Assembly (NCBI RefSeq): GCF_029457495.1
Contig: NZ_CP120361.1
Span: 3,674,001-3,738,000 of the forward strand
Length of the DNA stretch: 64,000 nt
Source: Chelativorans sp. AA-79
Lineage (GTDB): Bacteria; Pseudomonadota; Alphaproteobacteria; Rhizobiales; Rhizobiaceae
Reading direction: 5' to 3'
Part shown: in pieces, positions 8,392-31,084 of the stretch
Numbering within the stretch: the stretch's first letter is position 1
Layout of the letters: each line of letters begins with the position of its first letter
Program-made: the position numbers and the translations under genes
Notes under the pieces: generated by a model
What the model was told of the DNA's origin: nothing
Database searches by the model: none
Seen by the model: only the letters and a program-made list of their open reading frames with translations

Positions 8392-8598
8392 TGGGGCTCG
8401 CCGCGCGTGTCTCTTGAAAGAGGGAGCAATCTCGAAAGGGGGGCGCCGGCTTGTTGGGCGACTCTTTGCGTGTTCTCCAAGAAAATTTGAAGGCATAGAA
8501 CTTGAGTTGAATCTCTGCGGAAGTTCGACAGAGTCCGCACAAGAGCGTTCCCGTTCTGCATGTCTCTCAGTGGGGAAATTGGCTGCACAAAGTTCATT

Positions 8599-9355: not shown

Positions 9356-9445
9356 AACCCGACGCGGCTAATCAGCGAAGGCGAGGAATTGTCGAGCTTG
9401 CCAATCCCAGTGCTTCGGCTGAGCCCGCCTGCAGTTTCCCCTTCT

Positions 9446-10906
9446 TTACGGGCCCCGTGGCGAGAATATCGCGCGCGCGGGATCGGCCTCGTAGAAGGGA
9501 ACGTAGGCTCCCACATCGTCCGCAAGAGTAGCGATCGAATCGAGGATATAGTCGACCTTCTCGTCGGAAAGCAGCACGCTAAGATTGAAGCGCGTGAAGC
9601 CGGGCTTTTCGATCTCCTGCCCCGACCGGATCGCCGCCCGCAGCCCGTTGGAGCGGACCTCGTCGATGCCCAGCAGGCGATGGACGTAGGGTCCGGCGCA
9701 GGCGCAGCCGCCGCGGGCCTGGATACCGAAACGGTCGCTCAGCATCCGGGTCACCAGTTGCTGATGCACATGCCCGCCGTGCCCGTCGCGGATACGGAAC
9801 GCGAAGATCGGCAGGCGCGTGGCGGTCGTAGAGCCGAGCATCTCGAGATTCGGTATGTCGAGAAGCCGTCGCATTGCACGGCCGGCGAGCCATTCGTTGC
9901 GCACTGCCATGAAGTCCGCACCGATCGCCTCCTTGACGAGAAAGGCCAGAGCGGCGCGGATGTCGCCGATGACGTTCGGCGTTCCCGCCTCCTCCCGCGC
10001 CTCAAGGCTGGCACTGTAATCGTGCCCCCAGGGCGAGACAAAGGAGACCGTGCCTCCGCCCGGCCATGTCGGCTTGTCGGCCACGACGGCATCGCGCCGC
10101 ACGATCAGGACGCCCGAGGCGCCGGGGCCGCCGACGAATTTGTGCGGTGAGACGACGACGGCGTCGATGTAATCGGCCACGTCGATCGGCACATATGGCC
10201 CCGCCCCGGCATAATCCCACACCATCAGCGCGCCGGCCGCCTTCACTTGCCGCGAGATGGCGCGGACATCGGCGACGATGCCCGTGACGTTGGAGGCGGC
10301 CGAAAAGGAGCAAACTGTCAATTCCGGCGCCGAGGGCTGATGAAGCACGGCTTCCAGGCGGTCGCGATCGGGACCGCCACCGGGCGCCTCCTCGATCTCG
10401 ACGATCTCCGCCCCGCTTTCGCGCCACGGCAGTATGTTGGAATGATGCTCGTAGGGGCCGATAATGACGCGTGCGCCGGCACCCGCGGCAGCGGTCTGCC
10501 GGACGCCCAAAAGATTTACGAGGCGATTGATGCCGGTCGTGGCACCGTTGCCGGCGAAGATCACCGCGTGCGCGGCGCCGGCATTGCAGAAGCGGAGAAT
10601 GGTAGCGCGCGCTTCGCGGCGCAACCGGGTGACATAGCCGCCGCAGAAGGACGCCTCCGTGTGGCTGTTGGCGTAATAGGGCAGCAACTCGCGCAGTACG
10701 AACTCCTCGACCTGCATCAGCGCCCTGCCGGACGCGACATAGTCGGCATAGACGAGACGCTTCTCACCGAACGGCCCCGGCACAACCGCGTCTTCGCCGA
10801 TCAGCCCTCTGCGCAAGACGGCGACTGCGCTCTCGGCCGCAAGCCTCGCGCGGAAATCGGCTAGCGGGGACGGGTTTTCAGCGGCGAGGCTCACAATGAT
10901 CTCCAT
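9446..10906 (-). CDS. Class V aminotransferase / cysteine-desulfurase-fold PLP enzyme
   Basis: About 486 residues of fold-type I PLP enzyme. Visible landmarks are the cofactor-binding FAGNGATTGINRL, DYAGAGPYVPID with the Asp that pairs with the PLP ring, and the Schiff-base Lys in VVVSPHKFVGGPGASG. A Cys-containing loop, ARGGCACAGPYVHRLLG, lies near the C-terminus, as in the class that includes desulfurases. True SufS/IscS proteins are about 410 residues, so this longer member may be a lyase or aminotransferase on another substrate. I use the ATG at 10906; a GTG at 10894 has a better-spaced GGAG. It is divergent from an Lrp-type gene that probably controls it. Confidence 0.82.
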   Translation of the reverse strand: MEIIVSLAAENPSPLADFRARLAAESAVAVLRRGLIGEDAVVPGPFGEKRLVYADYVASGRALMQVEEFVLRELLPYYANSHTEASFCGGYVTRLRREARATILRFCNAGAAHAVIFAGNGATTGINRLVNLLGVRQTAAAGAGARVIIGPYEHHSNILPWRESGAEIVEIEEAPGGGPDRDRLEAVLHQPSAPELTVCSFSAASNVTGIVADVRAISRQVKAAGALMVWDYAGAGPYVPIDVADYIDAVVVSPHKFVGGPGASGVLIVRRDAVVADKPTWPGGGTVSFVSPWGHDYSASLEAREEAGTPNVIGDIRAALAFLVKEAIGADFMAVRNEWLAGRAMRRLLDIPNLEMLGSTTATRLPIFAFRIRDGHGGHVHQQLVTRMLSDRFGIQARGGCACAGPYVHRLLGIDEVRSNGLRAAIRSGQEIEKPGFTRFNLSVLLSDEKVDYILDSIATLADDVGAYVPFYEADPARAIFSPRGP

Positions 10907-10978
10907 ACCAAGGGATTTTTCTTTCAATATCACCGCTGAAGCGAAGAAACCTCACTTGTTTTGAGCCATGAACACATT

Positions 10979-11002
10979 ATTATCGTTCATATGAACGATA
11001 AT
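10979..11002. promoter_or_regulatory. Perfect 24-bp palindrome overlapping the Lrp-family start codon
   Basis: The arms are ATTATCGTTCAT (10979-10990) and ATGAACGATAAT (10991-11002), with no spacer. The right arm begins with the ATG that I take as the start of the regulator gene. A dimeric regulator bound here would block its own transcription and could control the divergent PLP-enzyme gene that starts about 75 bases away. Confidence 0.75.
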
Positions 11003-11473
11003 TTTCCCACAATTGATATGATTGATCGAAAGATCGTGCGCGAGCTGCAAAAGGACGCCTCGCTGTCCCAGCGCGAGCTGGCGGAGCGGGTCGGCCTGTC
11101 GCAAAACGCCTGCTGGCGCAGGCTTCAGCGGCTTCGGGCCGAGGGCATTCTGGGCGACATGCAGACGCGAGTGAACCTGGAGGCGTTCGGCCTCGACCTC
11201 ACCGTCTTCGTGATGATTCGCACCCGCCACCACTCCGTCGAATGGGCGACCCGCTTCCGCAGCCATGTCGAGCGGCTGCCGGAGGTCACCGGCTTCTATC
11301 GGATCGGCGGCGACTGGGACTATCTGGTCAAGGTGGTGACGCGCGGCATGAAGGGCTACGACGCCTTCTACAAGCGGCTGACCACCGATTTCGACCTTGC
11401 AACCGTCACCGGTTTCTTCTCGATGGAAGAGATCATTGACGAGCGCCCCGTGGACGTGCTGCAGATCCGGTGA
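10991..11473 (+). CDS. Lrp/AsnC-family transcriptional regulator
   Basis: A 160-residue regulator. The N-terminal winged helix is DMIDRKIVRELQKDASLSQRELAERVGLSQNACWRRLQRL, and the C-terminal RAM/AsnC ligand domain has the Gly-Asp turn in GFYRIGGDWDYLVKVV. This family usually senses an amino acid. The ATG at 10991 lies in the palindrome described separately and has no Shine-Dalgarno sequence; the alternative TTG at 10961 also lacks one, so the message may be leaderless. It likely regulates the divergent PLP enzyme. Its stop at 11473 abuts the convergent dehydrogenase gene. Confidence 0.92.
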   Translation: MNDNFPTIDMIDRKIVRELQKDASLSQRELAERVGLSQNACWRRLQRLRAEGILGDMQTRVNLEAFGLDLTVFVMIRTRHHSVEWATRFRSHVERLPEVTGFYRIGGDWDYLVKVVTRGMKGYDAFYKRLTTDFDLATVTGFFSMEEIIDERPVDVLQIR

Positions 11474-12496
11474 CTATCGGTGTATGGCCGGAAGGAGGTC
11501 GTTCTCGGCACGGAAATCCCGCCCGTAGAGCGCACAGAAGATCGCCACCCCGGCTTTGTGAAGCGGAACGGGCACGCTCTTTTCCCTTGCGAGGTCGATC
11601 ACCTGCACGATGCCGAAGGGCACGTCCTCGGTGACGAAGCGGGTTTCGAGCGATGTCGGACCGGGGGGCCCCTTGCGCTTTTCGTGGACGGCCGCCGCCA
11701 TCTCGGCAACACTCATGCCTTCCGCAAAGCCGAAGGTCAGGCGGTAGTGATCCTCGACGCTGCGCACCGACACGCCATGCGCAGCGGCAACCGCCAGCCG
11801 CTCGGCGTCGAGCGCCTCGATGAAGCGCGCGACAGACGGCGTGATCGCGTCGTAGTTGGCCCAGTACTCGGCCTTCTCGATGCGGGTGAAGTTGCACAGG
11901 GCGCTCGCCATGTGGATCGGCGGATTGAGGTTGCTGAGCGCGATCGCGGTAAGGTTGGCGGCAAGCCGGAAGCGGTCGCCGAACAGCGCGCGGCAGGTCT
12001 GCAGCCCCTCCGACGCCCGATGCTCGGGCAGGACCGCGATCTCCAGAAGGTTGCGGATACCGCCGATGGCGACGGTATCCGGGCCGGAGCGGCGCCCCAT
12101 GAGCACGGTGGTAGCAAATGCGATCACCGTCACGTCCACCCCGCGCTGTTCGAGACGCTGCGCGAGATAGAGCGCGCCCATCGACAATTGCGCGCTGACG
12201 ATGACCGTCTGGCCGGGCGCGACATGCGGCAGCGCAGCGTCGAAGACGTTGCGATGGCCGTTGGCAGGCAAGGCGACGATGATCACATTCGCCTCCTTCA
12301 CCGCTTCGGCGGCCGTAGGCACGAAGGCAACACGCAACCGGTGCTCGATGACGCCGGTAGTGACAAGGTCGGACGTCGCGAGCTCGCCGATGCTCGCTCC
12401 CGACGGCGACCAGACCGCCACCGTGTGGCCGGCCTGCTCGAGCATGGCCGCCATTGCGAGCGCGACGCCCCCTGCCCCGAGAATTGCCACCCGCAT
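11474..12496 (-). CDS. Octopine/nopaline dehydrogenase-like NAD(P) oxidoreductase
   Basis: A 340-residue protein with an N-terminal Rossmann motif (MRVAILGAGGVALAMAAMLEQAGHTV) and a helical C-terminal domain of the opine-dehydrogenase type: NPPIHMASALCNFTRIE carries the catalytic-type His, and DHYRLTFGFAEGMSVAEMA follows. Family members reductively join, or oxidatively split, an amino acid and an alpha-keto acid. The gene starts 3 bases after the hyuB stop, so it is in the hyuAB operon. In this context oxidative cleavage of an opine-like or N-carboxyalkyl amino acid is a reasonable guess, not shown by sequence. Confidence 0.85.
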   Translation of the reverse strand: MRVAILGAGGVALAMAAMLEQAGHTVAVWSPSGASIGELATSDLVTTGVIEHRLRVAFVPTAAEAVKEANVIIVALPANGHRNVFDAALPHVAPGQTVIVSAQLSMGALYLAQRLEQRGVDVTVIAFATTVLMGRRSGPDTVAIGGIRNLLEIAVLPEHRASEGLQTCRALFGDRFRLAANLTAIALSNLNPPIHMASALCNFTRIEKAEYWANYDAITPSVARFIEALDAERLAVAAAHGVSVRSVEDHYRLTFGFAEGMSVAEMAAAVHEKRKGPPGPTSLETRFVTEDVPFGIVQVIDLAREKSVPVPLHKAGVAIFCALYGRDFRAENDLLPAIHR

Positions 12497-12499
12497 CGT

Positions 12500-14164
12500 T
12501 CAGACGTCCAGCCCGTAAATGTCGCGGGCGGCCTGAAGCGAGATGCGCTCCTCTTTCAGGTCTCGCCGGACGAGGTCGCGGTCGCGCTCCTTCGGGTTGC
12601 CGTAGCCGCCACCCGACGATGCGACCATCGCCAGCGTCCGGCCCGGACCGACGCGGCCGTTGCGGTTCTTCAGCGCCGCAACGCCCTCGCCCAGCTCGAC
12701 ATTGGTGGTGCGACCGTCATGGGCGCCGAACAGACCCCACGGCGGGATGATCGAATTGGTGCCGCCGGCATTGACTGTCGCGGTATGGTCGAGCACGCGG
12801 ATCTGCCGGCGCATCGTCATGCCGCCGCGCCATTTGCCGGGGCCGCCGGAGTCCTGCACCAGCTCATAGCGCTCGACCATGACGGGATGCTCGAATTCGA
12901 GCGCCTCGATGGGAATGTTGGCGGTGTTGGTGGTGTGCACCTGCACGCCGTCAAGCCCGTCCTGCGCGGCGCGTCCGCCCATGCTGCCGCCGCACATCTC
13001 GTTATAGACGTAGAAGCGGCCGGTGCGCGGGTGCATGCCCGAAAACGTCATCAGGCCACCGCCCGTGCAGGCCGCGCAGATGCGCTCGGGGATGGCGGCG
13101 GAAAGCGCTGCGAAGATCATGTCCACCAGCCGCTGACCGATGTCGGTGCGGGTGTAAACGGCTGCGGGCGAGACCGCGTTGAAGACGGAGCCTTCATCCG
13201 CAATGACGTGTATGGGACGATGGAAGCCGGAATTGGCCGGAATGCCCGGATCAACCAGCGACTTGACGGCGAAATAGACCGTGGCGAGCGTGGCCGTGTA
13301 GACCATGTTGATGCCGGCGCGAACCTGCGCGGGATTGTCGCGCAGGTCGATCGTAATCTCGTCACCCTTGACCTCGACTTTCACCTTGAGGTCAAGCAGT
13401 TGGTCGTAGGAGGGCGTATCGAAACGACATTCGTTGAAGTACACGCCGTCCGGGATGGTGGCGATGCCGGTGCGGGTCTTGCGCTCGGCGTAGTCCAGCA
13501 CCTCGGCACCTGCCGCGCGCACGACATGCTCGCCGTACTTTGAGCACAGTGCCTGATATCGCTGGACGCCCAGCCGATTGGCCGCCATCTGGGCGCGGAA
13601 ATCGTTGATGCGCTCGTGCGGGACCTGACAGTTCAGCAGCACCAGATCCATGATATCCTGCTGCAGCACGCCCTTGCGGTAGAGGCGGATCGGCGGAATG
13701 CGCAGACCTTCCTGATAGATATGGTCGTGGCCGCGGTCGACGAAGTCGGAGTGATGCGCGAGGTTCGTTACCCACGCCACCAGCCTCTCCTCGAAGAAGA
13801 CCGGCTCAAGAAAGACGATGTCGTTGAGATGCGTGCCGCCGCCGGTATGGGCATCGTTGCCGATGAAGACGTCGCCCGGCTCGACCGTCGACAGATCGAC
13901 ATTCTTCATCACCCATTCCGAGATGCCGAGCAGCGAGCCCAGATGCACGGGAATGCGCTCGGCCTGCGCTAGCGTGCGGCCTTCAGTGTCGAAGATCACC
14001 GTGGAGCAGTCCTGCCGCTCCTTGATGTTGGCCGAATAGGCGGCGCGCACGATGGCCTTGCCCATTTCCTCGACAATCGTCATCAGCGCGCTGCCGACGA
14101 CCTCCGTGGTTACGGGATCGAGTTGCACGGACGCGGTTTCCGAGACTGAGAGGAGCTTGTTCAT
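12500..14164 (-). CDS. hyuB: Hydantoinase B / 5-oxoprolinase beta-type subunit
   Basis: 554 residues, starting MNKLLSVSETASVQLDPVTTEVVGSAL. The typical HyuB landmarks are GKAIVRAAYSANIKERQDCST, a GDVFIGNDAHTGGGTHLNDI segment, a mid-protein NSGFHRPIHVI region, and the C-terminal GGPGKWRGGMTMRRQIRV. With HyuA it forms the ATP-dependent ring-opening enzyme acting on hydantoins, 5-oxoproline or related lactams or imides. The start overlaps the HyuA stop (ATGA), giving translational coupling. Open sequence reading upstream into the HyuA gene is out-of-frame shadow. Length fits the family. Confidence 0.92.
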   Translation of the reverse strand: MNKLLSVSETASVQLDPVTTEVVGSALMTIVEEMGKAIVRAAYSANIKERQDCSTVIFDTEGRTLAQAERIPVHLGSLLGISEWVMKNVDLSTVEPGDVFIGNDAHTGGGTHLNDIVFLEPVFFEERLVAWVTNLAHHSDFVDRGHDHIYQEGLRIPPIRLYRKGVLQQDIMDLVLLNCQVPHERINDFRAQMAANRLGVQRYQALCSKYGEHVVRAAGAEVLDYAERKTRTGIATIPDGVYFNECRFDTPSYDQLLDLKVKVEVKGDEITIDLRDNPAQVRAGINMVYTATLATVYFAVKSLVDPGIPANSGFHRPIHVIADEGSVFNAVSPAAVYTRTDIGQRLVDMIFAALSAAIPERICAACTGGGLMTFSGMHPRTGRFYVYNEMCGGSMGGRAAQDGLDGVQVHTTNTANIPIEALEFEHPVMVERYELVQDSGGPGKWRGGMTMRRQIRVLDHTATVNAGGTNSIIPPWGLFGAHDGRTTNVELGEGVAALKNRNGRVGPGRTLAMVASSGGGYGNPKERDRDLVRRDLKEERISLQAARDIYGLDV

Positions 14165-16266
14165 CCGGAGGCCTCGAGCATCAGGTTGAGATAGGCGTCG
14201 ACGGTGGCGGCCTGCGCCGGCAGCACGAGCGTGGTGGAATCCATCTGCTCGATGACGGCAGGCCCTTTGACCACGTGGCCAGGCTGGAGGCGCTCGCGAT
14301 CGTAGAGCGGCACGTCGACGACTGCACCCATTTCCGGCAGCCAGACGCTGCGCGTGCCGATGACGGTCGCAGCGACGTCGCCGGTTGCCGGCGGATAAGA
14401 CTTCTGCTCGGCTTTCGGAACCAGGCCGATCGCCTCGGCGCGCAGGGTCGTGATCTGGATCGGCTCCTCGTCGGCGACATAGCCGTAGAGCTGGCGATGC
14501 GCGTCCTCGAAGTTCCGGCGCAACGCATCGAGAACCGTCTCGGGAGAAGCATCCTCCGGCCAATCCACGGTCAGCTCGTAGCCCTGTCCGCCGTAGCGCA
14601 TGTCGACGGCACGGTTGAGGCGGCGATCGCCAGCGGGAATCTTCTCGGCTGCGAACCAGTCGTCGGCGCGCTCCCGAAGTTGAGCGAAGCCGGCTTCCAG
14701 AGGTGCAAGCGAATCCGACCCGAGCGCCATCATCCGCGTCAGGGCGAGATTGGTGCGCAGGTCGGACTGCAACAGCCCCAGGGCACACATGATGCCGGGA
14801 TGCTTGGGGATCATGACACGCGGAATGTCGAGCTCGGCTGCGAGGCGGGCAGCATGGATGGGGCCGGCGCCACCGAAGGCGAGCATGACATAGTCGCGCG
14901 GATCGTAACCGCGCTCGACCGAAATGACGCGAATGGCCTTGGCCATGTTGGCGACGACGACGCGGATGATGCCCTGCGCCGCGTCCATGACACCGATGCC
15001 GAGCTTTTCGGCCAGCCGCTCGACCGCCGCGCGGGAAGCGGAAGCATCGATCGCCATGCGGCCGTTGAGCAGGTGCGTCTGGTTGAGTATCCCAAGCACG
15101 ACATTGGCGTCGGTGACAGTCGGCTCGTCATTGCCGAGGCCGTAGCACACTGGTCCCGGAGATGCGCCTGCCGAGCGCGGGCCGACCTTGAGAAGGCCGT
15201 TGTCGACATACGCGATGGAGCCGCCGCCGGCGCCCACGGTGTGAATGTCCAACATCGGCACCTTGAGCGGGTAGCCGTGAACCTCGATGTCGTTGGCCAT
15301 CTGCGGACGACCGCGATCGATCAGCGACACGTCGCTGGACGTGCCGCCCATGTCGAAGGTGATGAGGTTGTCGTAGCCTGTCGAGCGACCAATGGTCAAA
15401 GCCGCCATCACACCCGCGGCCGGTCCGGACAGCACCGTGCGGACCGGCTGCGCCTTGGCCGTCTCGCAGGAGATGACGCCGCCATTGCTCTGCGTGAGAT
15501 GCGGCTCGGCATGAACCCCGATGGCCTCCAGACGCGGCGTGAGACGATCCAGATAGGCGCGCATGATCGGCCCGAGATAGGCGTTGACCACCGTGGTGGA
15601 CAGGCGCTCATATTCGCGGAACTCGGGCGCGATCTCGTGCGAGACCGAGATGAAGGCCCCGGGATACTCCTCCTCGACGATGGCGCGGATACGCGCCTCG
15701 TGTTTCGGCTCGATGAAGGAGAAAAGCGTGCAGATCGCCACGGCGCCGACGCCGTCCTGCTTCAGCTTGCGAACCGCCGCACGTACGTCGCCCTCGTTCA
15801 GCTCGGTCTGCACCGTGCCGTCGAACAGGATGCGCTCGCGCACCTCCAGCCGCTTGTCGCGGCTGGCGAGAACTGGCGGCTTCACTGTCTGCAAATCGTA
15901 GAGATCGGGCCGCTTCTGACGCCGTATTTCAAGGATGTCACGGAAACCGGCGGTGGTGATAAGGCCGGTGTCGGCACCGTTGCCGGTGATCAGCGCATTG
16001 GTACCGACCGTCGTGCCGTGACCGAAATAGGCTACCGCCCCGCGAGCGGCCTCGCCGCCCAACTCCCCGAGCGCCTGCTCGATACCTGTAGCGATGCCTT
16101 CGGAGGGGTCGCGCGGCGTGCTGGACACCTTCCAGACCAGAACGTCGCCGGTGCTTTCGTCAAACACGCAGACATCGGTGAAGGTGCCGCCCGAATCGAC
16201 GCCGACGCGCAACCGGGCGGAAGAGGGCTGGGAGTTGTCCTGAGACAAAGGAAAGCGTCCTCGCAT
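14161..16266 (-). CDS. hyuA: Hydantoinase A / 5-oxoprolinase alpha-type subunit
   Basis: About 701 residues of the actin-fold ATPase subunit. RVGVDSGGTFTDVCVFDE opens the nucleotide-binding fold, GHGTTVGTNALI and GFRDILEIRRQKRPDLYDL follow in the N-terminal domain, then FDMGGTSSDVSLI and AVGAGGGSIAYVD form the phosphate-binding loops. The C-terminal part matches the family to the end. I start at the ATG at 16266, 16 residues before that fold; upstream in-frame codons to 16344 would enter the control region. First gene of hyuA-hyuB-dehydrogenase, divergent from a GntR regulator. Confidence 0.92.
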   Translation of the reverse strand: MRGRFPLSQDNSQPSSARLRVGVDSGGTFTDVCVFDESTGDVLVWKVSSTPRDPSEGIATGIEQALGELGGEAARGAVAYFGHGTTVGTNALITGNGADTGLITTAGFRDILEIRRQKRPDLYDLQTVKPPVLASRDKRLEVRERILFDGTVQTELNEGDVRAAVRKLKQDGVGAVAICTLFSFIEPKHEARIRAIVEEEYPGAFISVSHEIAPEFREYERLSTTVVNAYLGPIMRAYLDRLTPRLEAIGVHAEPHLTQSNGGVISCETAKAQPVRTVLSGPAAGVMAALTIGRSTGYDNLITFDMGGTSSDVSLIDRGRPQMANDIEVHGYPLKVPMLDIHTVGAGGGSIAYVDNGLLKVGPRSAGASPGPVCYGLGNDEPTVTDANVVLGILNQTHLLNGRMAIDASASRAAVERLAEKLGIGVMDAAQGIIRVVVANMAKAIRVISVERGYDPRDYVMLAFGGAGPIHAARLAAELDIPRVMIPKHPGIMCALGLLQSDLRTNLALTRMMALGSDSLAPLEAGFAQLRERADDWFAAEKIPAGDRRLNRAVDMRYGGQGYELTVDWPEDASPETVLDALRRNFEDAHRQLYGYVADEEPIQITTLRAEAIGLVPKAEQKSYPPATGDVAATVIGTRSVWLPEMGAVVDVPLYDRERLQPGHVVKGPAVIEQMDSTTLVLPAQAATVDAYLNLMLEASG

Positions 16267-16330
16267 TGGCCCCGCAGGGAGCGCGGGCCTAAAGTTAGCA
16301 GCGAAGCGACCGACAGGTGCTCCTGTTGCA

Positions 16331-16343
16331 GAAATTGGCGCCA
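16331..16343. promoter_or_regulatory. Putative GntR operator, copy 1 (GAAATTGGCGCCA)
   Basis: A 13-base word containing the palindrome TTGGCGCCAA, in the 140-base gap between hyuA and the GntR gene. The identical 13-mer recurs at 17099-17111 in front of the hydrolase/importer operon. Duplication at two promoters flanking the regulator gene is the evidence for a shared operator. Confidence 0.6.
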
Positions 16344-16406
16344 AATTTGGGGACTGTCAAGCCGATCCACGCGTGCTAGAGTGACAATTCAACAAAAGAG
16401 ACATGC

Positions 16407-17039
16407 ATGAAGCAGGAAACGACTTCGACCCAGGGGCGCCTTGCCGACATCATCGAGCGCGACATCTACCAGGGCGTTCTGGCGCCTGGCATGTGGCTGA
16501 AGCAGATCGATCTGGAGGAGCGGTACGGCTGCACGCGTCTGTCCCTCCGGCACGCGCTCGAGCAGCTCCAGACGCGGAAGATCGTCCAGCACGTCCCGAA
16601 CCGGGGTTACTACGTACCGTCGGTCGACCAGACTGCCGTGCGCGAGATCATGCAGGCACGCGCCTATGTGGAAATGTCGGTCTGCGACAATCTCGTGGCC
16701 AATATCAGCGACGACTCAATCGCCAAATTGTCATACCTTGCAAGCCTTTTCGCCGATTCCATCAAATCCGGCACCGTACTGCAGCAGGACGAAGCGAACC
16801 ATGCGTTCCATCGCGAATTGCTGCGCTCCTGCAAGAACCAGGTGATGGTGGAGATTATCTGGGATCTGCGCCTGCGCGTTCCGATCTCGGTTCAACGCGC
16901 GAACAATACCCCGACCCGCCTCGAACGCTCCGCACGCGAACATTTCGAGATGGTGGAAGCCTTGCGCCTGCGCGACGCGGAGCGCCTGCGCGCCATCACC
17001 GAAAGCCACGTCACCTATCCGTCGGAAGCCGGGCGCTGA
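16407..17039 (+). CDS. GntR-family regulator, FCD subfamily
   Basis: A 210-residue regulator. The N-terminal winged helix is atypically spelled (LADIIERDIYQGVLAPGMWLKQIDLEERYGCTRLSLRHALEQLQ, then RGYYVP in the wing). The all-helical FCD effector domain carries the expected metal ligands: Asp and His in QQDEANHAFH, His in AREHFEMVEAL, and His in TESHV. FCD regulators bind carboxylate-type ligands and repress nearby catabolic genes. It is divergent from hyuA and precedes the hydrolase/importer operon, with the same 13-mer on both sides, so it probably represses both. Confidence 0.9.
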   Translation: MKQETTSTQGRLADIIERDIYQGVLAPGMWLKQIDLEERYGCTRLSLRHALEQLQTRKIVQHVPNRGYYVPSVDQTAVREIMQARAYVEMSVCDNLVANISDDSIAKLSYLASLFADSIKSGTVLQQDEANHAFHRELLRSCKNQVMVEIIWDLRLRVPISVQRANNTPTRLERSAREHFEMVEALRLRDAERLRAITESHVTYPSEAGR

Positions 17040-17098
17040 TTTCTTTGCATTTTTCGCTTCAGTTCAAAGAATCATCGCAGAAGAGAAAAATTTTGTTT

Positions 17099-17111
17099 GA
17101 AATTGGCGCCA
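17099..17111. promoter_or_regulatory. Putative GntR operator, copy 2 (GAAATTGGCGCCA)
   Basis: Identical in all 13 bases to the copy at 16331-16343. It lies 60 bases after the GntR stop and about 100 bases before the start of the alpha/beta hydrolase gene, consistent with an operator for the downstream transport operon. Confidence 0.6.
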
Positions 17112-17213
17112 TATGAGGTTCTTATTTTAGGGAACAAGAAGAGGCTCCGGCGACTGTCGGCGGTCCGGGAACATCGGTTGCGGTTTGCCGCTCTCCTATT
17201 GAAAGGACGCTTC

Positions 17214-18056
17214 GTGCCTACTGTCGCACTGAACGGCGCAACGTTCGTCTATGACGAGGCCGGTTCCGCCGACGCCGAGCCGATCATCGCGCTGCACGGC
17301 GGGCGCGGCATCGGCGACCGCCACGGCGAGTTCAACGCCTGGTCCGCGCTGTCGGACACCTACAGACTGATCGCGTACGACCAGCGCGGCTGCGGCCAGA
17401 CCAGCCTCACGCCTCCTTATACGTTCGAGCAGCTTGCCGACGACGTCGAGGCGTTCCGGCAGACGCTGTGCGGCGGCCGCAGGATTATCCTTCAAGGCGG
17501 CTCTTTCGGGGGTATGATCGCGCTCACCTATGCGGTCAAGTACCCGCAGGGGCTCTCGCGGCTCATCCTGCGGGGAACCGCGCCCAGCCACCACAACGAG
17601 GACGACGCCTTCGAAACATTCCGCGCGCGGCTGCACAAGGCGTCAAGCGCATCCGAGGGGATGCTGCGCAAGATGTTTTCCGACACGGTGGTCGACGACA
17701 CCGAACTGCGGTTGATCTGGCTTGCTCTGCAGCCGCTCTACTTCGAGAAATTCGATCCGGACGCGGCTCTCGAGCGCACCCGCACGATGCATCTGCACGC
17801 CGAAACCCACAACGCGCTGTTCAAGGAGCGCAGCTACGACCTGCGAGACCGGCTTCCCGAGATACAGGTCCCCACATTGGTGATCGTCGGGGCGGAAGAC
17901 TGGATCTGCACGCCGAACCACTCCAGGCTGATCGCCGACCAAGTGCCGAATGCGGAACTCTTCGAGGTGCCGGGCGCAAACCATGCAGTCCACGTCGAGG
18001 CGAACGACATCGTCATTTCCGCTGCGCGCGATTTCCTGGCGCGCAGTGCCGGCTAA
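17214..18056 (+). CDS. Alpha/beta hydrolase, proline iminopeptidase-like
   Basis: A 280-residue cytoplasmic-looking hydrolase from a GTG at 17214 with AAAGGA 6 bases upstream. The oxyanion HGG motif (IIALHGGRGIGDRHGEF), DQRGCGQTS, the nucleophile elbow GGSFGGMIALTY, an acid in VIVGAEDWIC, and the catalytic His in PGANHAVHVEA are all in the right order. The S33 peptidase group, which releases N-terminal proline or cleaves small amides and lactones, is the closest pattern. As first gene of the peptide-importer operon, it probably acts on the imported compound. Confidence 0.88.
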   Translation: MPTVALNGATFVYDEAGSADAEPIIALHGGRGIGDRHGEFNAWSALSDTYRLIAYDQRGCGQTSLTPPYTFEQLADDVEAFRQTLCGGRRIILQGGSFGGMIALTYAVKYPQGLSRLILRGTAPSHHNEDDAFETFRARLHKASSASEGMLRKMFSDTVVDDTELRLIWLALQPLYFEKFDPDAALERTRTMHLHAETHNALFKERSYDLRDRLPEIQVPTLVIVGAEDWICTPNHSRLIADQVPNAELFEVPGANHAVHVEANDIVISAARDFLARSAG

Positions 18057-18073
18057 GTTCTGAAGAGACCGGG

Positions 18074-18994
18074 ATGGCTCGATATTTCCTGTCAAAGATC
18101 GCGGAGGCCCTCATAGCGGTATGGGGTGTCCTGACGATCGTTTTCTTCGTGACACGTGTGTTGGGCGATCCCGCGACGCTGTTGCTACCGATCGGCGCTA
18201 CCGAAGCGCAACTCGATGCATTGCGCGAGCAGTTCGGTCTGCACAGGCCGGTGGTCGAGCAGTATCTCCACTACCTTGCGATGATCGTGCAGGGCGATTT
18301 CGGTATGTCGTTCCAGTTCCAGCGCCCGGCCATGGAGGTCGTGCTGGAACGCATGCCCGCAACACTGGAGCTTGCGTTTTCGGCAATCATCCTCGGCACG
18401 CTGCTGGGGCTGGTGGCCGGCACCATCGCCGCCCTGAATCGCGGAAGGCTGGCGGAGCTGGTGGTGATGATCTTCGCCCTTCTGGGGCAGGCGACGCCGG
18501 TTTTCTGGCTCGGCATCATGTTCATCCTGCTGTTCGCGGTGGAGTTCGGTTGGCTGCCGACGGGCGGCCGCGGCACGCTCGCCCACACGGTCCTGCCGGC
18601 ACTGACGCTGGCGATCTTCGTCTGCGCGTCGATCGCGCGCCTGCTGCGGTCGAGCCTGCTGGACGTGCTGCGGGAGGACTATGTACGCACCGCCCGCGCC
18701 AAGGGCCTGATGCCGCGCACCATCTTCGTCTGGCACGTCGCGCGCAACGCTCTGATCCCGGTGGTGACGATGATCGGCATCATCATGGGTGAGCTGCTCG
18801 GCGGTTCCGTCGTCACGGAGACAGTCTTTGCGTGGCCGGGCATCGGGCGCCTCATCATCCAGGCGATCGAGACCAAGGATTTTCCGGTGATCCAGGCCGG
18901 CGTGATGCTGATCGCCTTCATTTTCGTCGCCATCAACCTGCTGATCGATCTCGCTTACGGCTTCCTTGATCCGCGCATACGCGAGCGCCGATAG
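18074..18994 (+). CDS. ABC transporter permease, DppB/OppB type
   Basis: 306 residues. MARYFLSKIAEALIAVWGVLTIVFFVTRVLGDP is the typical first membrane helix followed by GDP. The conserved cytoplasmic loop for contact with the ATPase is in DYVRTARAKGLMPRTIFVWHVARNALIPVV, and about six helices are visible. It forms the inner-membrane channel with the next permease. It starts 15 bases after the hydrolase stop, in one operon. Peptides, opines and related amides are typical substrates. Confidence 0.93.
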   Translation: MARYFLSKIAEALIAVWGVLTIVFFVTRVLGDPATLLLPIGATEAQLDALREQFGLHRPVVEQYLHYLAMIVQGDFGMSFQFQRPAMEVVLERMPATLELAFSAIILGTLLGLVAGTIAALNRGRLAELVVMIFALLGQATPVFWLGIMFILLFAVEFGWLPTGGRGTLAHTVLPALTLAIFVCASIARLLRSSLLDVLREDYVRTARAKGLMPRTIFVWHVARNALIPVVTMIGIIMGELLGGSVVTETVFAWPGIGRLIIQAIETKDFPVIQAGVMLIAFIFVAINLLIDLAYGFLDPRIRERR

Positions 18995-19004
18995 GACATC
19001 AGAC

Positions 19005-19859
19005 GTGAAACAGTTCTTCTCCGCCCTGATTCGCTCGCGTGCCGGACTTTTCGGCTGGACGATCCTTTGTCTTTTCGTCGTCGTCGCGCTGGCCGCGCCA
19101 TGGCTGGGCCTGCACGACCCGGTCAAGAGCAGCCTGACTGCGCGGCTCGAGGCGCCGACTTGGACCGATCTGTTCAACCCCGGCGCGCACCCGCTAGGCA
19201 CCGACCAGCTCGGCCGGGACATCCTCAGCCGTGTTGTCTACGGCTCGCGCGCGACGCTGGCGATCGCGGGCATGGCGGTGATCCTCGGCGGCATCGTCGG
19301 TGTGGTCCTCGGCATCGTTGCGGGCTATCTGCGCGGCATCACGGATACGATCCTGATGCGGCTGGTCGACATCCAGCTTGCGCTGCCGCTGATGCTTCTG
19401 GCGTTGCTTGTCGTTGCGGCGTTCGGCCCGTCGATGACCAATCTCGTCATCGTTCTCGCCCTCACGAGCTGGATACGGTACGCCCGCATCGTGCGCGGCC
19501 AGGTGCTGGCCGTTCGCGAGCGGGAATTCGTGCTGTCGACGGTCGCCATCGGCGCATCCACCGCGCGCATCATGTTCCGTCATATCCTTCCCAACATCGT
19601 CACCCCGGCCGTCGTCGTCGCCACGCTGGAACTCGCGCGCATTATCATCATGGACGCCGCGCTGAGCTTCCTCGGGCTCGGGCTTCAGCCTCCTTCCCCG
19701 AGCTGGGGCCGCATGCTTGCCGACGGGCGCACCTACATGAACACAGCCTGGTGGGTCGTCACCTTCCCCGGTCTTGCCATCGTTCTGACGGTTCTGAGCG
19801 TGAACCTGGTGGGTGACTGGCTGCGCGACTATTTCGATCCCCGCCAGAGGAACCTGTGA
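19005..19859 (+). CDS. ABC transporter permease, DppC/OppC type
   Basis: 284 residues with a GTG start at 19005 (AGGA 8 bases upstream); an in-frame ATG at 18966 would overlap the previous gene by 29 bases and has no ribosome site. Conserved points are HPLGTDQLGRDILSRVVYGSRATL and the coupling loop REREFVLSTVAIGASTARIMFRHILPNI. Partner of the preceding permease. The stop overlaps the next start by one base. Confidence 0.92.
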   Translation: MKQFFSALIRSRAGLFGWTILCLFVVVALAAPWLGLHDPVKSSLTARLEAPTWTDLFNPGAHPLGTDQLGRDILSRVVYGSRATLAIAGMAVILGGIVGVVLGIVAGYLRGITDTILMRLVDIQLALPLMLLALLVVAAFGPSMTNLVIVLALTSWIRYARIVRGQVLAVREREFVLSTVAIGASTARIMFRHILPNIVTPAVVVATLELARIIIMDAALSFLGLGLQPPSPSWGRMLADGRTYMNTAWWVVTFPGLAIVLTVLSVNLVGDWLRDYFDPRQRNL

Positions 19860-20875
19860 TGGGTACACCGCTCCTGGAAGTCCGTAATCTGAGCGTGGTC
19901 TTCGACACGCCGGCTGGGACAGTGCACGCCGTCAACGACGTTTCCTATACGCTGGAGGAAGGCGAGACGCTGGGGATCGTCGGCGAAAGCGGCTCGGGCA
20001 AGAGCGTCCATGCGCTTGCCATGCTCGGTCTGCTGCCGCGACCGCCGGGGCGGATCGTTTCCGGCGAGGTCCTGTTTCGCGGCCGCAACCTCCTGACGAT
20101 GAGCGAGCGCGAGTTGCGGGATATTCGCGGAAAGCAGATCGGCTTCGTCTTCCAGGACCCGATGACGGCGCTAAACCCGGTGCTCACGGTCGAACGGCAG
20201 CTTTGCGAACCGCTCGTCCGCCACGAGAACCTGTCGAAACCGGCAGCACGCAAGCGAGCCATCGAACTGCTCGAATTGGTCGGCATTCCCTTCGCGGAGG
20301 ATCGCATCGGCCACTATCTCTTCCAATTCTCGGGTGGAATGCGGCAGCGGGTGATGATCGCTATCGGCATTGCCTGCAGCCCACAGCTGCTAATCGCCGA
20401 CGAGGCGACCACTGCGCTGGACGTGACCGTGCAGGCGCAGGTGCTCGATCTCGTGCGCGACCTGAAGGAGAAGTTCGGCACCACCGTCATCTGGATCACG
20501 CACGACATGGGCGTGGTGGCCGGCCTCGCCGACACCGTGCAGGTGATGTATGGCGGCCGGATCATGGAGCGCGGCCCGGCCGATCCGATCTTCCACAAGC
20601 CGCACAGCGCCTACACCTGGGGTCTGCTGCGCTCCCTCCCTCACGGGCAGACGCGCAGCACAAGGCGGCTCTATCAGATACCCGGCCAGCCGCCGGACCT
20701 GCTTGCCGCGCCGAAGGGCGATCCGTTCGCCCCCCGCAACGAGTTCGCCACGCCGCGCTGCTTCGAGGAGGTGCCGCCGCTGCGGCAGGTTGACGGCAGC
20801 GTTCCGGGCCATCTGGTCGCGGCATGGTACAATCTCCCGGCCTTGCTGGCGAAGCGCGAGGGAGCACAGGCATGA
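19859..20875 (+). CDS. ABC transporter ATPase, OppD/DppD type
   Basis: 338 residues. Walker A is [12 protein letters not shown], the Q loop is in GFVFQDPMTALNP, the signature is QFSGGMRQRVMIA, Walker B is LLIADEATTALD, and the switch His is in WITHDMGVVAG. A C-terminal oligopeptide-type extension follows, with DPFAPRNEFATPRCFEEVPPL (the iron-sulfur motif of the family is reduced to one Cys here). It powers import with the OppF-type partner. The ATG at 19859 overlaps the preceding stop (TGATG). Confidence 0.93.
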   Translation: MGTPLLEVRNLSVVFDTPAGTVHAVNDVSYTLEEGETLGIVGESGSGKSVHALAMLGLLPRPPGRIVSGEVLFRGRNLLTMSERELRDIRGKQIGFVFQDPMTALNPVLTVERQLCEPLVRHENLSKPAARKRAIELLELVGIPFAEDRIGHYLFQFSGGMRQRVMIAIGIACSPQLLIADEATTALDVTVQAQVLDLVRDLKEKFGTTVIWITHDMGVVAGLADTVQVMYGGRIMERGPADPIFHKPHSAYTWGLLRSLPHGQTRSTRRLYQIPGQPPDLLAAPKGDPFAPRNEFATPRCFEEVPPLRQVDGSVPGHLVAAWYNLPALLAKREGAQA

Positions 20876-21777
20876 CGGCCGTTCCCCAGCCGCTCGTCGC
20901 GGTTCGCAACCTGGTCAAGCAGTATGGTGGCCGGAAGCGGCTGTTCGGCGGCGGATTTTCCCTGCGGGCCGTCGACGACATCAGCTTCGACATCGCGCCC
21001 GGCGAAACGCTGGGTCTGGTGGGCGAATCCGGTTCGGGCAAAAGCACGACCGGCCGGGTTCTCCTCCAGCTCGAACCGCTGACCTCCGGCGAGGTCCGTT
21101 TCAAGGGCGAAAGCATAACCGGCTTCAAACCTTCGGAAATGAAGCGCTTCCGGCAGGAAATGCAGATCGTCTTTCAGGACCCTTACTCGGCGCTCAACCC
21201 GCGCATGACGGTGGGCGACTTCGTGGAAGAGCCGATCCTCATCCACACGAAAAGCTCCAGGGCCGAACGACGCGACCGCACCGCCGAATTGTTCCGGCTC
21301 GTCGGGCTAGACCCGTCCTTCATGTCGCGTTATCCGCACGAATTTTCAGGCGGCCAGCGCCAGCGCGTCAACATCGCAAGGGCGGTTGCGCTGCGGCCGA
21401 GCTTTATCGTGGCCGACGAGCCGATCACCGCGCTCGACGTATCCATCCAGGCACAGATCATCAATCTTTTCCAGGACCTCCAGGAACAGATGGGATTGGC
21501 CTACCTGTTCGTCGCGCACGACCTGTCGATGGTGCGCTATCTCTGCCATCGCGTCGCCGTCATGCTGCGCGGACGCATCGTGGAAATGGCGCCGGCGGAG
21601 CAGCTTTTCGAGGATCCGCGCCATCCCTACACACAGGCGTTGCTCAGCGCGATCCCGGTACCCGATCCACGCATCGAGCGGCAGCGCCGCCATGTCAAGT
21701 TCAATCTCGCCGTTCACGGCCCGAAGCCCGAGCAGGCACTGCGCGAGGTCTCACCCGACCATCTTGTCCTTTCATGA
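20872..21777 (+). CDS. ABC transporter ATPase, OppF/DppF type
   Basis: 301 residues, starting at the ATGA overlap with the preceding stop; longer in-frame starts lie inside that gene. Walker [15 protein letters not shown] loop [13 protein letters not shown], signature [13 protein letters not shown], Walker [12 protein letters not shown], and switch His [11 protein letters not shown] are all intact. The second, distinct nucleotide-binding subunit of the peptide-type importer, as usual for this class. Confidence 0.93.
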
Positions 21778-21813
21778 GCCGACATCACCCGTAACCTTCA
21801 CCCAAAGCGAGAC

Positions 21814-23328
21814 ATGCCAATGCTTCACCAAACGCGTACATTTCTGCTGGCCGGCGCCGCCGGCCTCTTCATGTCCATGCCTCTGGCGAACGCCCAGGAC
21901 GCCGACACGGTGACGATCGCCCTGCGCGTCGCGGTCAATACGCTCGATCCGCACATGTCCGCATCTGTCGGATCTGACCTTAGCGTGCTGAGCCACATTT
22001 ATCCGGCGCTGATCCTGCGCGGCCCGGACCTGAAGCTGCAGCCATCCGTGGCGCAATCGTGGGAAATGGTCGACGATACCACCTGGCGTTTCAAGCTGAC
22101 ACCCCGTGCGACCTTTGCAAATGGCGAGAAGATCGATGCTGCAGCCGTCAAGTGGAACCTTGACCGGGTCCTCGACGAGGCGGTCGGCGCCCGCATCGCC
22201 GGCTGGTTCTCCCTTGTGTCGGAGGCCATCGTCGTTGATGACCTGACCATCGATGTCAAGACGTCGGAGCCCTATCCGGCATTCGCCGACCAGCTCTCGA
22301 TGTTCTTCCTGCTGCCGCCGGAATGGGCGCAGACCCACAATCCGGCTACGGAAACCATGTCGGGCGGTCCTTACAAGGTCGCCGAAAACGTGCCGGGCGA
22401 CCACATCACGCTGGAGATCAATCCGGACTACTGGGGTGAAGCGCCGGCTTTCGAAACCGTGATCTTCCGCACGATTCCGGAGACAGGCAGCCGCATTGCC
22501 GCGCTGCTGGCAGGCGAGATCGACCTCGTTACCGGTATTCCTACGACCGAATTGGACCGGGTCAACGGCTCAGGCGTGGCCACGGCTGACGCGATCGACT
22601 CGATCCGGATGATGTTGGGTAAGATCAACCATCAAAAGGCGCCGATGGAAAACCGGGCCTTCCGCCAAGCCCTCAACTATGCCGTCGACAAGCAGGGCAT
22701 CGTTGACGCGATCTTCGATGGTAAGGCTACCGTGTCGGCCTGTCAGCTCCTGTCCGAACCGTATGTCGGTTACAATCCGAACCTCGAGGGTTACCCGTAC
22801 GACCCGGAAAAGGCGCGTGAACTGCTGCAGGAGTCTGGCGTTGACCTGAGCCAGGAAATCGAGATCGAGGTGCCGACCGCCACTTACCTGCAGGGCGATG
22901 AGGTTACCCAAATCATTGCAGCGCAGCTTCAGGAAGTCGGATTGAACATGAAGATCACCGAGATTGAATTCGGCGCCTTCATGAACAAGCAGCTTCGTGC
23001 GCGTGATCTCGCTCAGATAGCCGTTCAGGGACTGGCATGGCCGACCATCGATGCCGACGGAATGTTGACGATGTTCGCTCCAGGTAACGTTTACGACTAC
23101 TGGAACAATGCCGAATTCGGCAAGATCCTCGACGAGGCCCGCGTCACTACTGACAAAGAAAAGCGCGACGCGCTCTATGCCGATGCCACAAAGTTGATGT
23201 GCGATGAAGCGGCCGCGCTCTTCCTCTACCTGATGCCCGCCACATTCGGCGTGTCAAACCGCATCGAATGGGACGCGCGGGGCGACGACTGGGTTCGTGC
23301 TTTTGATATGAGGCCAGCCGCGCAGTAA
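21814..23328 (+). CDS. Periplasmic substrate-binding protein, peptide/opine family 5
   Basis: 504 residues with a Sec signal (MLHQTRTFLLAGAAGLFMSMPLANA, cleaved near residue 27). The family 5 pattern follows: TLDPHMSASVGSDLSVLSHIYPALI, WRFKLTPRATFANGEKIDAAAVKWNLDR, SGGPYKVAENVPGDHITLEINPDYWG, and NRAFRQALNYAVDKQGIV. It delivers the ligand to the DppBC-type channel. It looks like the group often found beside CMD-fold proteins (the next module downstream). The start could be either Met at 21814 or 21820. An intrinsic terminator follows. Confidence 0.92.
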   Translation: MPMLHQTRTFLLAGAAGLFMSMPLANAQDADTVTIALRVAVNTLDPHMSASVGSDLSVLSHIYPALILRGPDLKLQPSVAQSWEMVDDTTWRFKLTPRATFANGEKIDAAAVKWNLDRVLDEAVGARIAGWFSLVSEAIVVDDLTIDVKTSEPYPAFADQLSMFFLLPPEWAQTHNPATETMSGGPYKVAENVPGDHITLEINPDYWGEAPAFETVIFRTIPETGSRIAALLAGEIDLVTGIPTTELDRVNGSGVATADAIDSIRMMLGKINHQKAPMENRAFRQALNYAVDKQGIVDAIFDGKATVSACQLLSEPYVGYNPNLEGYPYDPEKARELLQESGVDLSQEIEIEVPTATYLQGDEVTQIIAAQLQEVGLNMKITEIEFGAFMNKQLRARDLAQIAVQGLAWPTIDADGMLTMFAPGNVYDYWNNAEFGKILDEARVTTDKEKRDALYADATKLMCDEAAALFLYLMPATFGVSNRIEWDARGDDWVRAFDMRPAAQ

Positions 23329-23347: not shown

Positions 23348-23380
23348 AGCCCCGGTGCAGCGCTGCATCGGGGCTTTTTC
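23348..23380 (+). terminator. Intrinsic terminator after the peptide-importer operon
   Basis: A stem of 12 base pairs (23348-23359 with 23364-23375, one G-U pair) and a GCGC loop, followed by TTTTT. It lies 20 bases after the stop of the binding-protein gene and marks the end of the operon that starts at 17214. Confidence 0.9.
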
Positions 23381-23951
23381 ATGCCTTTTCCGGCAGGACG
23401 GCGTGACCGAGAATATGCATCAGCCGATTAGCCCATCCGAAGATCGACACGGCGTGAATGAGATCGACGATCTCGGCATCGCCCATCCCGGTTTCGCGCA
23501 ACGCCGCAACGTGATCGGCCGTCGCTTGCGACGGTGTGCGTGATAGCGCAACGGCGAACTCCCAGATCGCGCGGTCGCGGACAGAAAGCAGATCGACCCG
23601 TCCGTACCAAAGTGCGGTGACGACATCGTCGCTTCCGGTCAGCTTTGCGTGCTGCCTGCCATGGATCATGGCGCAGTATTTGCACCCGTTCACCACCGAG
23701 GCTCCCAGCGCGCCCAGCTCGCGCTCAGGGCGCGGCAGGCCGCCTTCCGCGTACATGATCGCGTTGAACAGAACCGTGCGGGCGACATAGCTCTCGGGAT
23801 CATGCGCCAGCGTGCGCACATAGGGCGAGACCTTCTTGGCAGAGGGCGTCACCTTCATCGCCTCGAGCTGCTCGGGTGTGGCTTCATCGATCTCGACGGG
23901 CGTAATATGGGGGTGCCATACGAGCTGGCGAATGCGAATGGTTGGCATCAT
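23379..23951 (-). CDS. Alkylhydroperoxidase (AhpD)-like / CMD-domain protein with CxxC
   Basis: 190 residues. The AhpD-type redox motif is complete: NGCKYCAMIHGRQHAK, with CxxC and the following His. The helical core resembles peroxidase-related members of the carboxymuconolactone decarboxylase family and, from memory, the group named for Agrobacterium vitis Avi_7169. These probably detoxify peroxides or carry redox equivalents. The start overlaps the stop of the preceding CMD gene (TGATG). Last gene of the LysR-monooxygenase cluster; ends against the terminator of the opposing operon. Confidence 0.87.
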   Translation of the reverse strand: MMPTIRIRQLVWHPHITPVEIDEATPEQLEAMKVTPSAKKVSPYVRTLAHDPESYVARTVLFNAIMYAEGGLPRPERELGALGASVVNGCKYCAMIHGRQHAKLTGSDDVVTALWYGRVDLLSVRDRAIWEFAVALSRTPSQATADHVAALRETGMGDAEIVDLIHAVSIFGWANRLMHILGHAVLPEKA

Positions 23952-28039: not shown

Positions 28040-28051
28040 ATCCGTTTCCTT

Positions 28052-30920: not shown

Positions 30921-31084
30921 GATAAATCCCGCGAATTCCGGCAGTCATGCCGTTCCATGATGGCGCACTCAAGATTCTCGACCCGAAAGCCTGTCAGGCT
31001 GAGCCTGTCATCCCGAGCAAGCTGGAGGTCGCAGCCCGAACCGAACTTCTCATCCACTCGGGCCGCAACGTAGCGTCGGGCGGC

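Follow-up and report, generated by a model that had tools for sequence, protein, structure and literature searches.

Among the systems closest to the one described here are the opine regions of Ti plasmids. HyuAB-like genes and an opine-dehydrogenase-like gene (ODH) have been reported on the succinamopine plasmid pTiEU6 and on nopaline Ti plasmids, and tumours of pTiEU6 contain succinamopine lactam and succinopine lactam, which HyuAB-like proteins could open according to that report (PMC6733357). Nopaline, too, has a lactam, pyronopaline, whose assimilation uses the Noc pathway (PMC4192606), and a lactamase or hydantoinase occurs in some putative rideopine regions (PMC8554961, PMC10410297). 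Opine-catabolic gene families are also found in other crown-gall bacteria, in an account whose available part makes no mention of hydantoin (PMC10745273), and an NAD+-dependent opine dehydrogenase is known from an opine-growing Arthrobacter strain (PMC4575208). The locus compared with these systems is an island in Chelativorans sp. AA-79, in which hyuA, hyuB and an ODH gene stand beside a DppBCDF-type importer with a family 5 solute-binding protein (SBP). It lies in a window of 64,000 nucleotides (positions 3,674,001 to 3,738,000 of the 5.3 Mb contig NZ_CP120361.1), the whole stretch of DNA that was analysed.

The catabolic island is real and conserved, and it represents a new version, on the chromosome, of a theme familiar from Ti and Ri plasmids. 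The reading we put forward, with about as much confidence as doubt, is that it would serve opine-type compounds (secondary amines of an amino acid and a keto acid) together with their cyclic γ-lactam forms. This substrate class is favoured because HyuAB and ODH genes occur together in the noc regions of two Ti plasmids and because lactam opening by such proteins has been proposed in print (PMC6733357). The original prediction, made from the letters of the window, had proposed imported opine-like or cyclic compounds; its opine and lactam part is strengthened by these parallels, and the pyroglutamyl peptides and diketopiperazines that it also named stay alive as rivals, as do hydantoin-like substrates, because of a variant locus (L048) described below. 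Its statement that no described pathway has such a gene set was too strong, since HyuAB-like genes and an NAD-type ODH are reported in nopaline and succinamopine Ti opine regions (PMC6733357). Among the titles and abstract openings of literature on HyuAB with octopine dehydrogenase, on agropinic-acid lactam genes and on pRi1724/mikimopine, there was no published account of such a chromosomal island.

Family matches and gene order place every gene named in the original prediction where it was said to be, including both regulators, one of the GntR-FCD and one of the Lrp/AsnC type. The island extends past the end first given for it (23328), where a LysR–flavin-monooxygenase–AhpD set adjoins that is linked to ODH in other genomes. 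Its features are as follows.

9446..10933, minus strand: class V pyridoxal phosphate (PLP)-dependent enzyme, cysteine-desulfurase-like (PF00266, 170.5 bits)
10991..11473, plus strand: Lrp/AsnC regulator, divergent from the PLP gene (PF01037, PF13404)
11474..12496, minus strand: ODH, NAD(P)-type opine-dehydrogenase-like (PF02317, 107.8 bits)
12500..14164, minus strand: HyuB, hydantoinase/oxoprolinase/caprolactamase B subunit (PF02538, 531.8 bits)
14161..~16266, minus strand: HyuA, ATP-binding subunit (PF01968, PF05378, PF19278)
16335..16344: palindromic operator TTGGCGCCAA between hyuA and the GntR gene, exact in 11 of 11 loci of this type with GntR and HyuA adjacent
16407..17039, plus strand: GntR-family (FCD) regulator (PF00392, PF07729)
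17095..17111: second operator, ahead of the hydrolase-Dpp operon; its sequence, GTTTGAAATTGGCGCCA, is invariant in nine aligned loci
17199..18056, plus strand: alpha/beta hydrolase (GGSFGG), start uncertain (PF00561, 101.9 bits)
18074..18994, plus strand: DppB-type permease (PF00528, PF19300)
18966..19859, plus strand: DppC-type permease (PF00528)
19856..20875, plus strand: DppD-type ATPase (PF00005, PF08352)
20866..21777, plus strand: DppF-type ATPase (PF00005, PF08352)
21814..23328, plus strand: family 5 solute-binding protein, SBP_bac_5 (PF00496, 249.2 bits)
23379..23954, minus strand: AhpD1, alkylhydroperoxidase-like, with a CKYC motif (TIGR01926, 164.9 bits, above the cut-off of 81.8)
23951..24427, minus strand: AhpD2, companion of AhpD1, without a Pfam match; its aligned homologues adjoin AhpD1 and the monooxygenase
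24424..25881, minus strand: FAD/NADPH-binding oxidoreductase (flavin monooxygenase; PF13434, 33.8 bits)
25895..26851, minus strand: LysR regulator, with the monooxygenase 13 bp downstream (PF03466, PF00126)

Conservation across genomes shows that the core arrangement is not due to chance. A HyuA scan of genome contigs gave 28 loci, and in all ten with HyuA at least 71% identical to that of the window ODH follows hyuB directly; in the remaining 18, some of which are cut by contig ends, ODH was found in none. GntR, the hydrolase, DppBCDF and the binding protein accompany the pair in nine of the ten (L001-L008 and L010), with core proteins 60-92% identical and a varying order of the transport genes. 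The families thus keep together in other genomes, the opposite of what would have refuted the original prediction, and they have an operator in common. The tenth locus, from Salipiger (L009), is a partial cassette whose ODH (37%) falls outside the clade of the window's ODH, with no hydrolase match and no operator at hyuA. The ten come from Ectorhizobium, Tianweitania, Neorhizobium, Rhizobium (three), one 'Rhizobiales bacterium', Microvirga, Salipiger and Jiella; the cassette is also present on a plasmid of Neorhizobium (L037), and L047, with an ODH identical to that of L002, was left out of the count as a repeat. The variant L048 (G525; 9318-14179) has an M24-family protein together with a D-hydantoinase (561.3 bits against a cut-off of 393.25) in place of HyuAB, and the hydrolase, Dpp, binding protein, ODH, GntR and operator are retained. 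The best models of the M24 protein, Xaa-Pro dipeptidase and ectoine hydrolase, both score far under cut-off. This exchange supports ring opening as the probable job of HyuAB.

The second line of evidence is regulatory. Between hyuA and the GntR gene lies an invariant TTGACA followed, about ten bases on, by the palindrome TTGGCGCCAA. Eleven of the loci examined have GntR, HyuA and the hydrolase (the window, L001-L008, L010 and L037), and in all of them the exact palindrome stands between GntR and hyuA and a copy of its 10-base core, with at most one mismatch, upstream of the hydrolase. At the latter place a 17-base block, GTTTGAAATTGGCGCCA, is invariant in the nine loci that were aligned. The palindrome before hyuA and its copy before the hydrolase are a new observation. 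With an operator at both promoters in 11 of 11 loci, hyuAB-odh and hydrolase-dpp-sbp look like one regulon, and the island core is very likely co-regulated, with GntR as the protein that would bind the TTGGCGCCAA operators. As in opine loci, an importer with its binding protein sits beside catabolic enzymes, which is seen in the gene order and the operator at both operons; control by a single regulator is predicted. The flavin operon and the PLP gene are not claimed for the GntR regulon, because no operator was found ahead of either.

How specific the sites are can be judged from several counts. The pattern AATTGGCGCCA, which was itself chosen from the island sites, occurs three times in the 5.76 Mb host genome, two of these in the island, and a reversed-pattern control occurs twice; the third copy, at the middle of L096, falls by eye within a short-chain-dehydrogenase-like frame. 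A set of sequences of 1.64 Mb, enriched for these loci and containing duplicates, has 19 copies of the palindrome, compared with 0-13 copies for 29 half-permuted palindromes. In the 64 kb window there are six sites at up to one mismatch against 2.94 expected, a count that is not significant alone. An operator-like match at 48096, ahead of a distant DppF-like match, was taken as chance. Three further loci, L048, pRi1724 (L079) and S. medicae (L083), have the exact palindrome in the space that separates GntR from its neighbour.

The enzymes themselves carry the residues that their families lead one to expect. The genes for hyuA, hyuB and ODH had been called translationally coupled, which is fair given a 4-nt overlap between hyuA and hyuB and an ODH start 3 nt past the HyuB stop. 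For HyuA, the ATG at 16266 is preferred over the TTG at 16344, which overlaps the operator. ODH scores 107.8 bits against the Octopine_DH family PF02317 (gathering score 30) and has the family's His/Asp pair. At E 0.001 the PDB holds a single sequence match, the N-(1-D-carboxylethyl)-L-norvaline dehydrogenase 1bg6, which we take to be Arthrobacter CENDH, the NAD+-dependent enzyme of an opine-growing strain. The similarity is low and the alignment nearly end to end (120 bits), with H195 and D291 in register with the His and Asp of 1bg6; these two residues are presumably the catalytic pair. To our knowledge the 1bg6 enzyme is not associated with HyuAB. HyuA contains the ATP motifs DSGGTFTD, DMGGT and GASPGP, and alignment to 6yra_B gives D52, H112, D115 and H137 as the metal ligands of HyuB, so that ATP motifs in A and Asp-His-Asp-His in B, traits of the hydantoinase/oxoprolinase/lactamase superfamily, are both found. 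Chain lengths and motif places suggest that 6yra is CapAB. The ATP- and metal-site residues of CapAB caprolactamase are common to HyuAB of the window (PMC6061476, PMC8453981), and the Asp-His-Asp-His site of CapB has been tested by mutation (PMC8453981). Unlike CapB with its vicinal disulfide, HyuB has no Cys pair at that place. The alpha/beta hydrolase resembles proline iminopeptidases and enol-lactonases, with TIGR01250 and TIGR02427 scores under cut-off, and the PDB sequence relatives of the binding protein, led by 5u4o, include NikA, AccA (agrocinopine) and AgaA.

The host genome has eight near-full-length HyuA genes, that of the window included. One host pair (G000:C1:1851400-1855064; L077, also L030 and L091) has a HyuB that groups at 100/100 support with that of NC_002377, which we take to be an octopine-type Ti plasmid. 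The NC_002377 pair adjoins an annotated FAD-binding oxidoreductase, and the host pair, by eye, FAD-oxidoreductase-like and RidA-like frames. A further host pair (G000:C1:4016000-4035900, L078; HyuA 45%) lies beside a set resembling a flavin opine dehydrogenase (NoxA 41%, 2Fe-2S 37%) and is possibly another opine- or hydroxyproline-type locus. On the Ketogulonicigenium plasmid pYP12 (L082), a monooxygenase, an AhpD pair, a hydrolase, a peptide-type importer, LysR and HyuAB are found together, with no ODH in the 19.7 kb fetched.

Set against the plasmid systems, the island shows both likenesses and differences. In the noc regions of pTi_Tun188 and pTiK1_93 an ODH relative (47-48% identity) lies by nocT/Q/M with HyuA, HyuB, arginase and ornithine cyclodeaminase, alongside three FAD/2Fe-2S oxidoreductase genes that are probably nopaline dehydrogenase, a flavin opine dehydrogenase. 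Like the island, the noc region thus has HyuAB-type genes, a homologous ODH, an ATP-binding cassette (ABC) importer, a dedicated regulator and amino-acid-catabolic genes. It differs in that its importer is of the amino-acid type, flavin oxidoreductase genes are present and LysR takes the place of GntR; it is also plasmid-borne and tumour-linked, whereas the window is part of a 5.3 Mb contig. The HyuB of these two plasmids is 34% identical to that of the window, and the pairing of HyuAB with ODH may have arisen repeatedly. On the plasmid pRi1724, which PMC6733357 describes as a mikimopine plasmid, a homologous GntR (43%) and HyuAB (HyuB 61%) come with the identical operator, an exact TTGGCGCCAA ahead of hyuA. 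Unlike the island, it has an amino-acid-type importer and nearby histidine genes (hutG, hutH, hutI and formimidoylglutamate deiminase), and neither an ODH nor a hydrolase homologue in the 27.6 kb fetched. The succinamopine plasmid pTiEU6 shares a HyuAB-type pair and an NAD-type ODH with the island, and its authors propose lactam opening, but there the ODH (gene 19) is apart from HyuAB (30 and 31), and asparaginase and the flavin enzyme SacEFGH are present (PMC6733357).

ODH genes can also be followed beyond HyuAB. Among 72,556 records, 239 matched as ODH relatives, with 117 on Agrobacterium and 66 on Sinorhizobium plasmids. Besides the host, 41 genomes had an ODH in searches that covered the order (297 genomes; E 1e-30) and the class and family (385 and 199 genomes; E 1e-50). 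Thirty of these regions were fetched, at 11.9-19.9 kb each; the 11 omitted were nine genus duplicates, a weak broken match (G083) and G692. The flavin monooxygenase is present in 18 of the 30 and AhpD1 in 17, and PotABCD-type importer genes occur in 17 of the 18 with the monooxygenase. Threonine dehydrogenase and glycine C-acetyltransferase, both queries scoring above their model cut-offs, are found in six (L055, L056, L058, L063, L064, L068), which suggests a threonine-releasing version of the pathway. NoxA-like genes were seen in two (L052, L057). A histidine tail was not accepted for L061, where hut-like genes lie several kb away from ODH and are perhaps ordinary neighbours. An even draw of 199 genomes of the family contained 23 with ODH, 36 with the monooxygenase (at E 1e-90), 41 with the PLP enzyme (at E 1e-110) and four with a close HyuB (at E 1e-150). 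ODH and monooxygenase co-occur in 19 of these genomes, and in 18 of the 19 within 13 kb (hypergeometric p 3e-13 for co-occurrence, a value that, like the others given for this sample, ignores shared descent).

The monooxygenase that travels with ODH scores 33.8 bits against PF13434 (gathering score 21.3), and both family and fold are those of SidA/PvdA N-hydroxylating monooxygenases. The best Foldseek matches of its model (pLDDT 76) are putrescine, ornithine and cadaverine N-hydroxylases (E 2.4e-17, 15-16% identity, TMq a modest ~0.57), and the modelled enzyme has the fold of that group. In L053 a 50% homologue of LysR stands ahead of the same monooxygenase-AhpD genes. As a free-standing set, LysR, a 71% identical monooxygenase, AhpD2, AhpD1 and an amino-acid ABC importer occur on a Pantoea anthophila plasmid (L085), without ODH or HyuAB.

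These parts can be assembled into a pathway for opine lactams. SBP and DppBCDF, an importer by homology, would bring in the compound, and the α/β hydrolase may strip an ester, amide or peptide part from the imported form. HyuAB would then open the lactam with ATP, by phosphorylation in HyuA and hydrolysis in HyuB as in the caprolactamase/oxoprolinase mechanism, for which the residues are present. ODH with NAD(P)+ would oxidise the C-N bond and the resulting imine would hydrolyse to an amino acid and a keto acid; the His/Asp pair is in place and the direction is presumed. The flavin monooxygenase and AhpD pair, whose linkage is seen, may provide an accessory or alternative oxidation, and if the amino acid is cysteine, the Lrp-linked PLP enzyme might remove its sulfur. 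GntR, acting through the two sites seen, would control hyuAB-odh and hydrolase-dpp-sbp jointly.

Several observations weigh against an opine role. NAD-linked opine dehydrogenases run readily towards synthesis, and Ti plasmids cleave opines with flavin enzymes; NoxAB/OoxAB are a trait of opine loci, and a search with a Ti NoxA query found no NoxA-like gene in the window, which has an NAD-type ODH and a different flavin monooxygenase in their place. HyuAB as caprolactamase was rejected, with 633.6 and 268.7 bits against an NCBIfam equivalog cut-off of 1000. A general HyuAB-ODH bond across all ODHs was likewise dropped: HyuA(B) occurs in one of the 30 ODH regions (L047), so HyuAB is not predicted by ODH alone and ODH has other uses. 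The exact operator is absent from the HyuAB loci L077, L080, L081 and L082, the part of pRi1724 that was fetched has no ODH, and nopaline-Ti HyuB sits on a long branch whose place in the tree is unsure. PMC6733357 also describes what ODH does on Ti plasmids as unclarified.

Other substrates must be considered with these points in mind. The peptide-type importer and the proline-iminopeptidase-like hydrolase would suit degradation of pyroglutamyl or cyclic (diketopiperazine-type) peptides, in which Dpp imports, peptide-bond cleavage falls to the S33-like hydrolase, ring opening of 5-oxoproline or a cyclic dipeptide to HyuAB, and the N-alkylated remainder to ODH. The replacement of HyuAB in L048 by a D-hydantoinase and an M24 protein with dipeptidase and ectoine hydrolase as best models points the same way, and such genes may be cyclic dipeptide hydrolases (PMC6061476). 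However, this scheme leaves the coupling of ODH to hyuB unexplained, family-5 binding proteins are not peptide-specific, as AccA illustrates, and there is no further peptidase or glutamyl cyclotransferase among the family matches of island genes; we consider it unlikely. The D-hydantoinase of L048 also bears on the idea that HyuAB acts on hydantoin- or imidazolone-type rings, arginine glycation products included, after which ODH would take off the carboxyalkyl group. With 537 bits for the solved N-methylhydantoinase 7hk5 and 451 bits for 6yra, HyuA matches the former better, but 7hk5 is a distant relative, no carbamoylase or urease is found among the island-gene family matches and the Ti arginase query was unmatched in the window; this is the least probable of the alternatives. 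Only slightly less doubtful is a 2-hydroxyacid or ketimine dehydrogenase without an opine substrate, in an island serving some unrelated nitrogen-containing plant or microbial metabolite. ODH relatives do lie in clusters without HyuAB or an opine oxidase, and the ODH N terminus also resembles ApbA and glycerol-3-phosphate dehydrogenases; against this stand an Octopine_DH domain at the C terminus, with His and Asp intact, and family members in two noc regions.

Which amino acid the favoured opine pathway might release is a separate question, for which the PLP enzyme is the main clue. It has K265 and, in an R-G-G-C-A-C motif (R-x-G-x-x-C), C412, a combination that we assume to be typical of SufS-type desulfurases; its score is under the SufS model cut-off (149.6 against 475.1 bits). 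The original prediction had this enzyme finish the breakdown, a role that is not supported: it looks like a cysteine-desulfurase relative with an Lrp regulator of its own, and as a core part of the HyuAB unit it was rejected, since flanks of 10 kb showed it in one (L008) of the ten cassettes closest to the window's. The enzyme is better seen as a neighbour that recurs than as an obligatory final step. The Lrp-PLP pair recurs in L063, L065, L069, L070, L084 and L086, the first four of which, from three genera, are among the 30 ODH regions. In the sample of 199 genomes, 12 have both ODH and the PLP enzyme (p 3e-4 for co-occurrence), and in four of the 12 the two genes are no more than 10 kb apart (p ~2e-7 for random placement); these four represent only two genera, the host's included. 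In a second genome of the host genus (G837), the neighbour of Lrp-PLP is an ODH module of the Pot type, and the 19.9 kb fetched there contain no HyuAB; the pair thus stays while importer and ring-opening genes change.

After the cassette of L008 come genes homologous to TauE/SafE (49%), to an MBL protein (67%) and to the PLP enzyme (65%), and on a Rhizobium tumorigenes plasmid (L086) Lrp, PLP, MBL and TauE/SafE are directly beside ODH, importer, AhpD pair and monooxygenase; the MBL protein there scores 545.7 bits against a cut-off of 625 for the Blh (sulfur transferase/dioxygenase) model. On S. meliloti pSymA (L040), ODH adjoins an annotated TauE/SafE gene. In Gemmobacter (L041), whose ODH belongs to the window's clade, the neighbour resembles the L-cysteine desulfhydrase Cds1 (562.4 bits, cut-off 600). 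Because two unrelated types of cysteine-degrading enzyme stand beside related ODHs, cysteine is favoured as the product, and island catabolism perhaps releases it. Counted against this, within the fetched stretches such a gene is found in only three (the window, L008 and L041) of the 12 loci with the window's ODH type, which also include L001-L007, L010 and L037, L006 being assigned by identity and absent from the tree. In L084 PLP-Lrp-MBL is present with no ODH, and in the host the MBL homologues lie at a great distance from the island. A bolder proposal, speculative and rather unlikely to hold in full, is that the food is a set of undescribed cysteine-derived opines, namely N-(carboxyalkyl)cysteine or thiazolidines of cysteine and a keto acid, with the corresponding bicyclic γ-lactams, that the island belongs to a family of opine modules (ODH, monooxygenase-AhpD pair and importer) widespread in alphaproteobacteria, with cysteine, threonine, histidine or arginine tails, and that Ti and Ri plasmids drew on modules of a much older general opine economy in soil and sea.

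If the opine-lactam reading is correct, opine lactams would feed bacteria outside plant tumours, and the ODH and HyuAB genes of Ti plasmids would gain a testable role. The 10-base operator could then be used as a handle for finding more such loci and the inducing compound. The island points to three enzymes whose substrates a small synthetic opine panel could reveal, and its apparent design for importing, ring-opening and splitting amino-acid/keto-acid conjugates of the crown-gall type suggests that these feed bacteria far outside plant tumours too.

The surroundings of the island can be described briefly. Almost 1 kb ahead of the PLP gene (window 8497-9445) is without a called gene. At the other end, there is no evidence of island membership for the adjoining genes at 27080-33229, which are of the iron- or haem-uptake type: a periplasmic binding protein (PF01497), a TonB-dependent receptor and, by eye, two permease-like frames.

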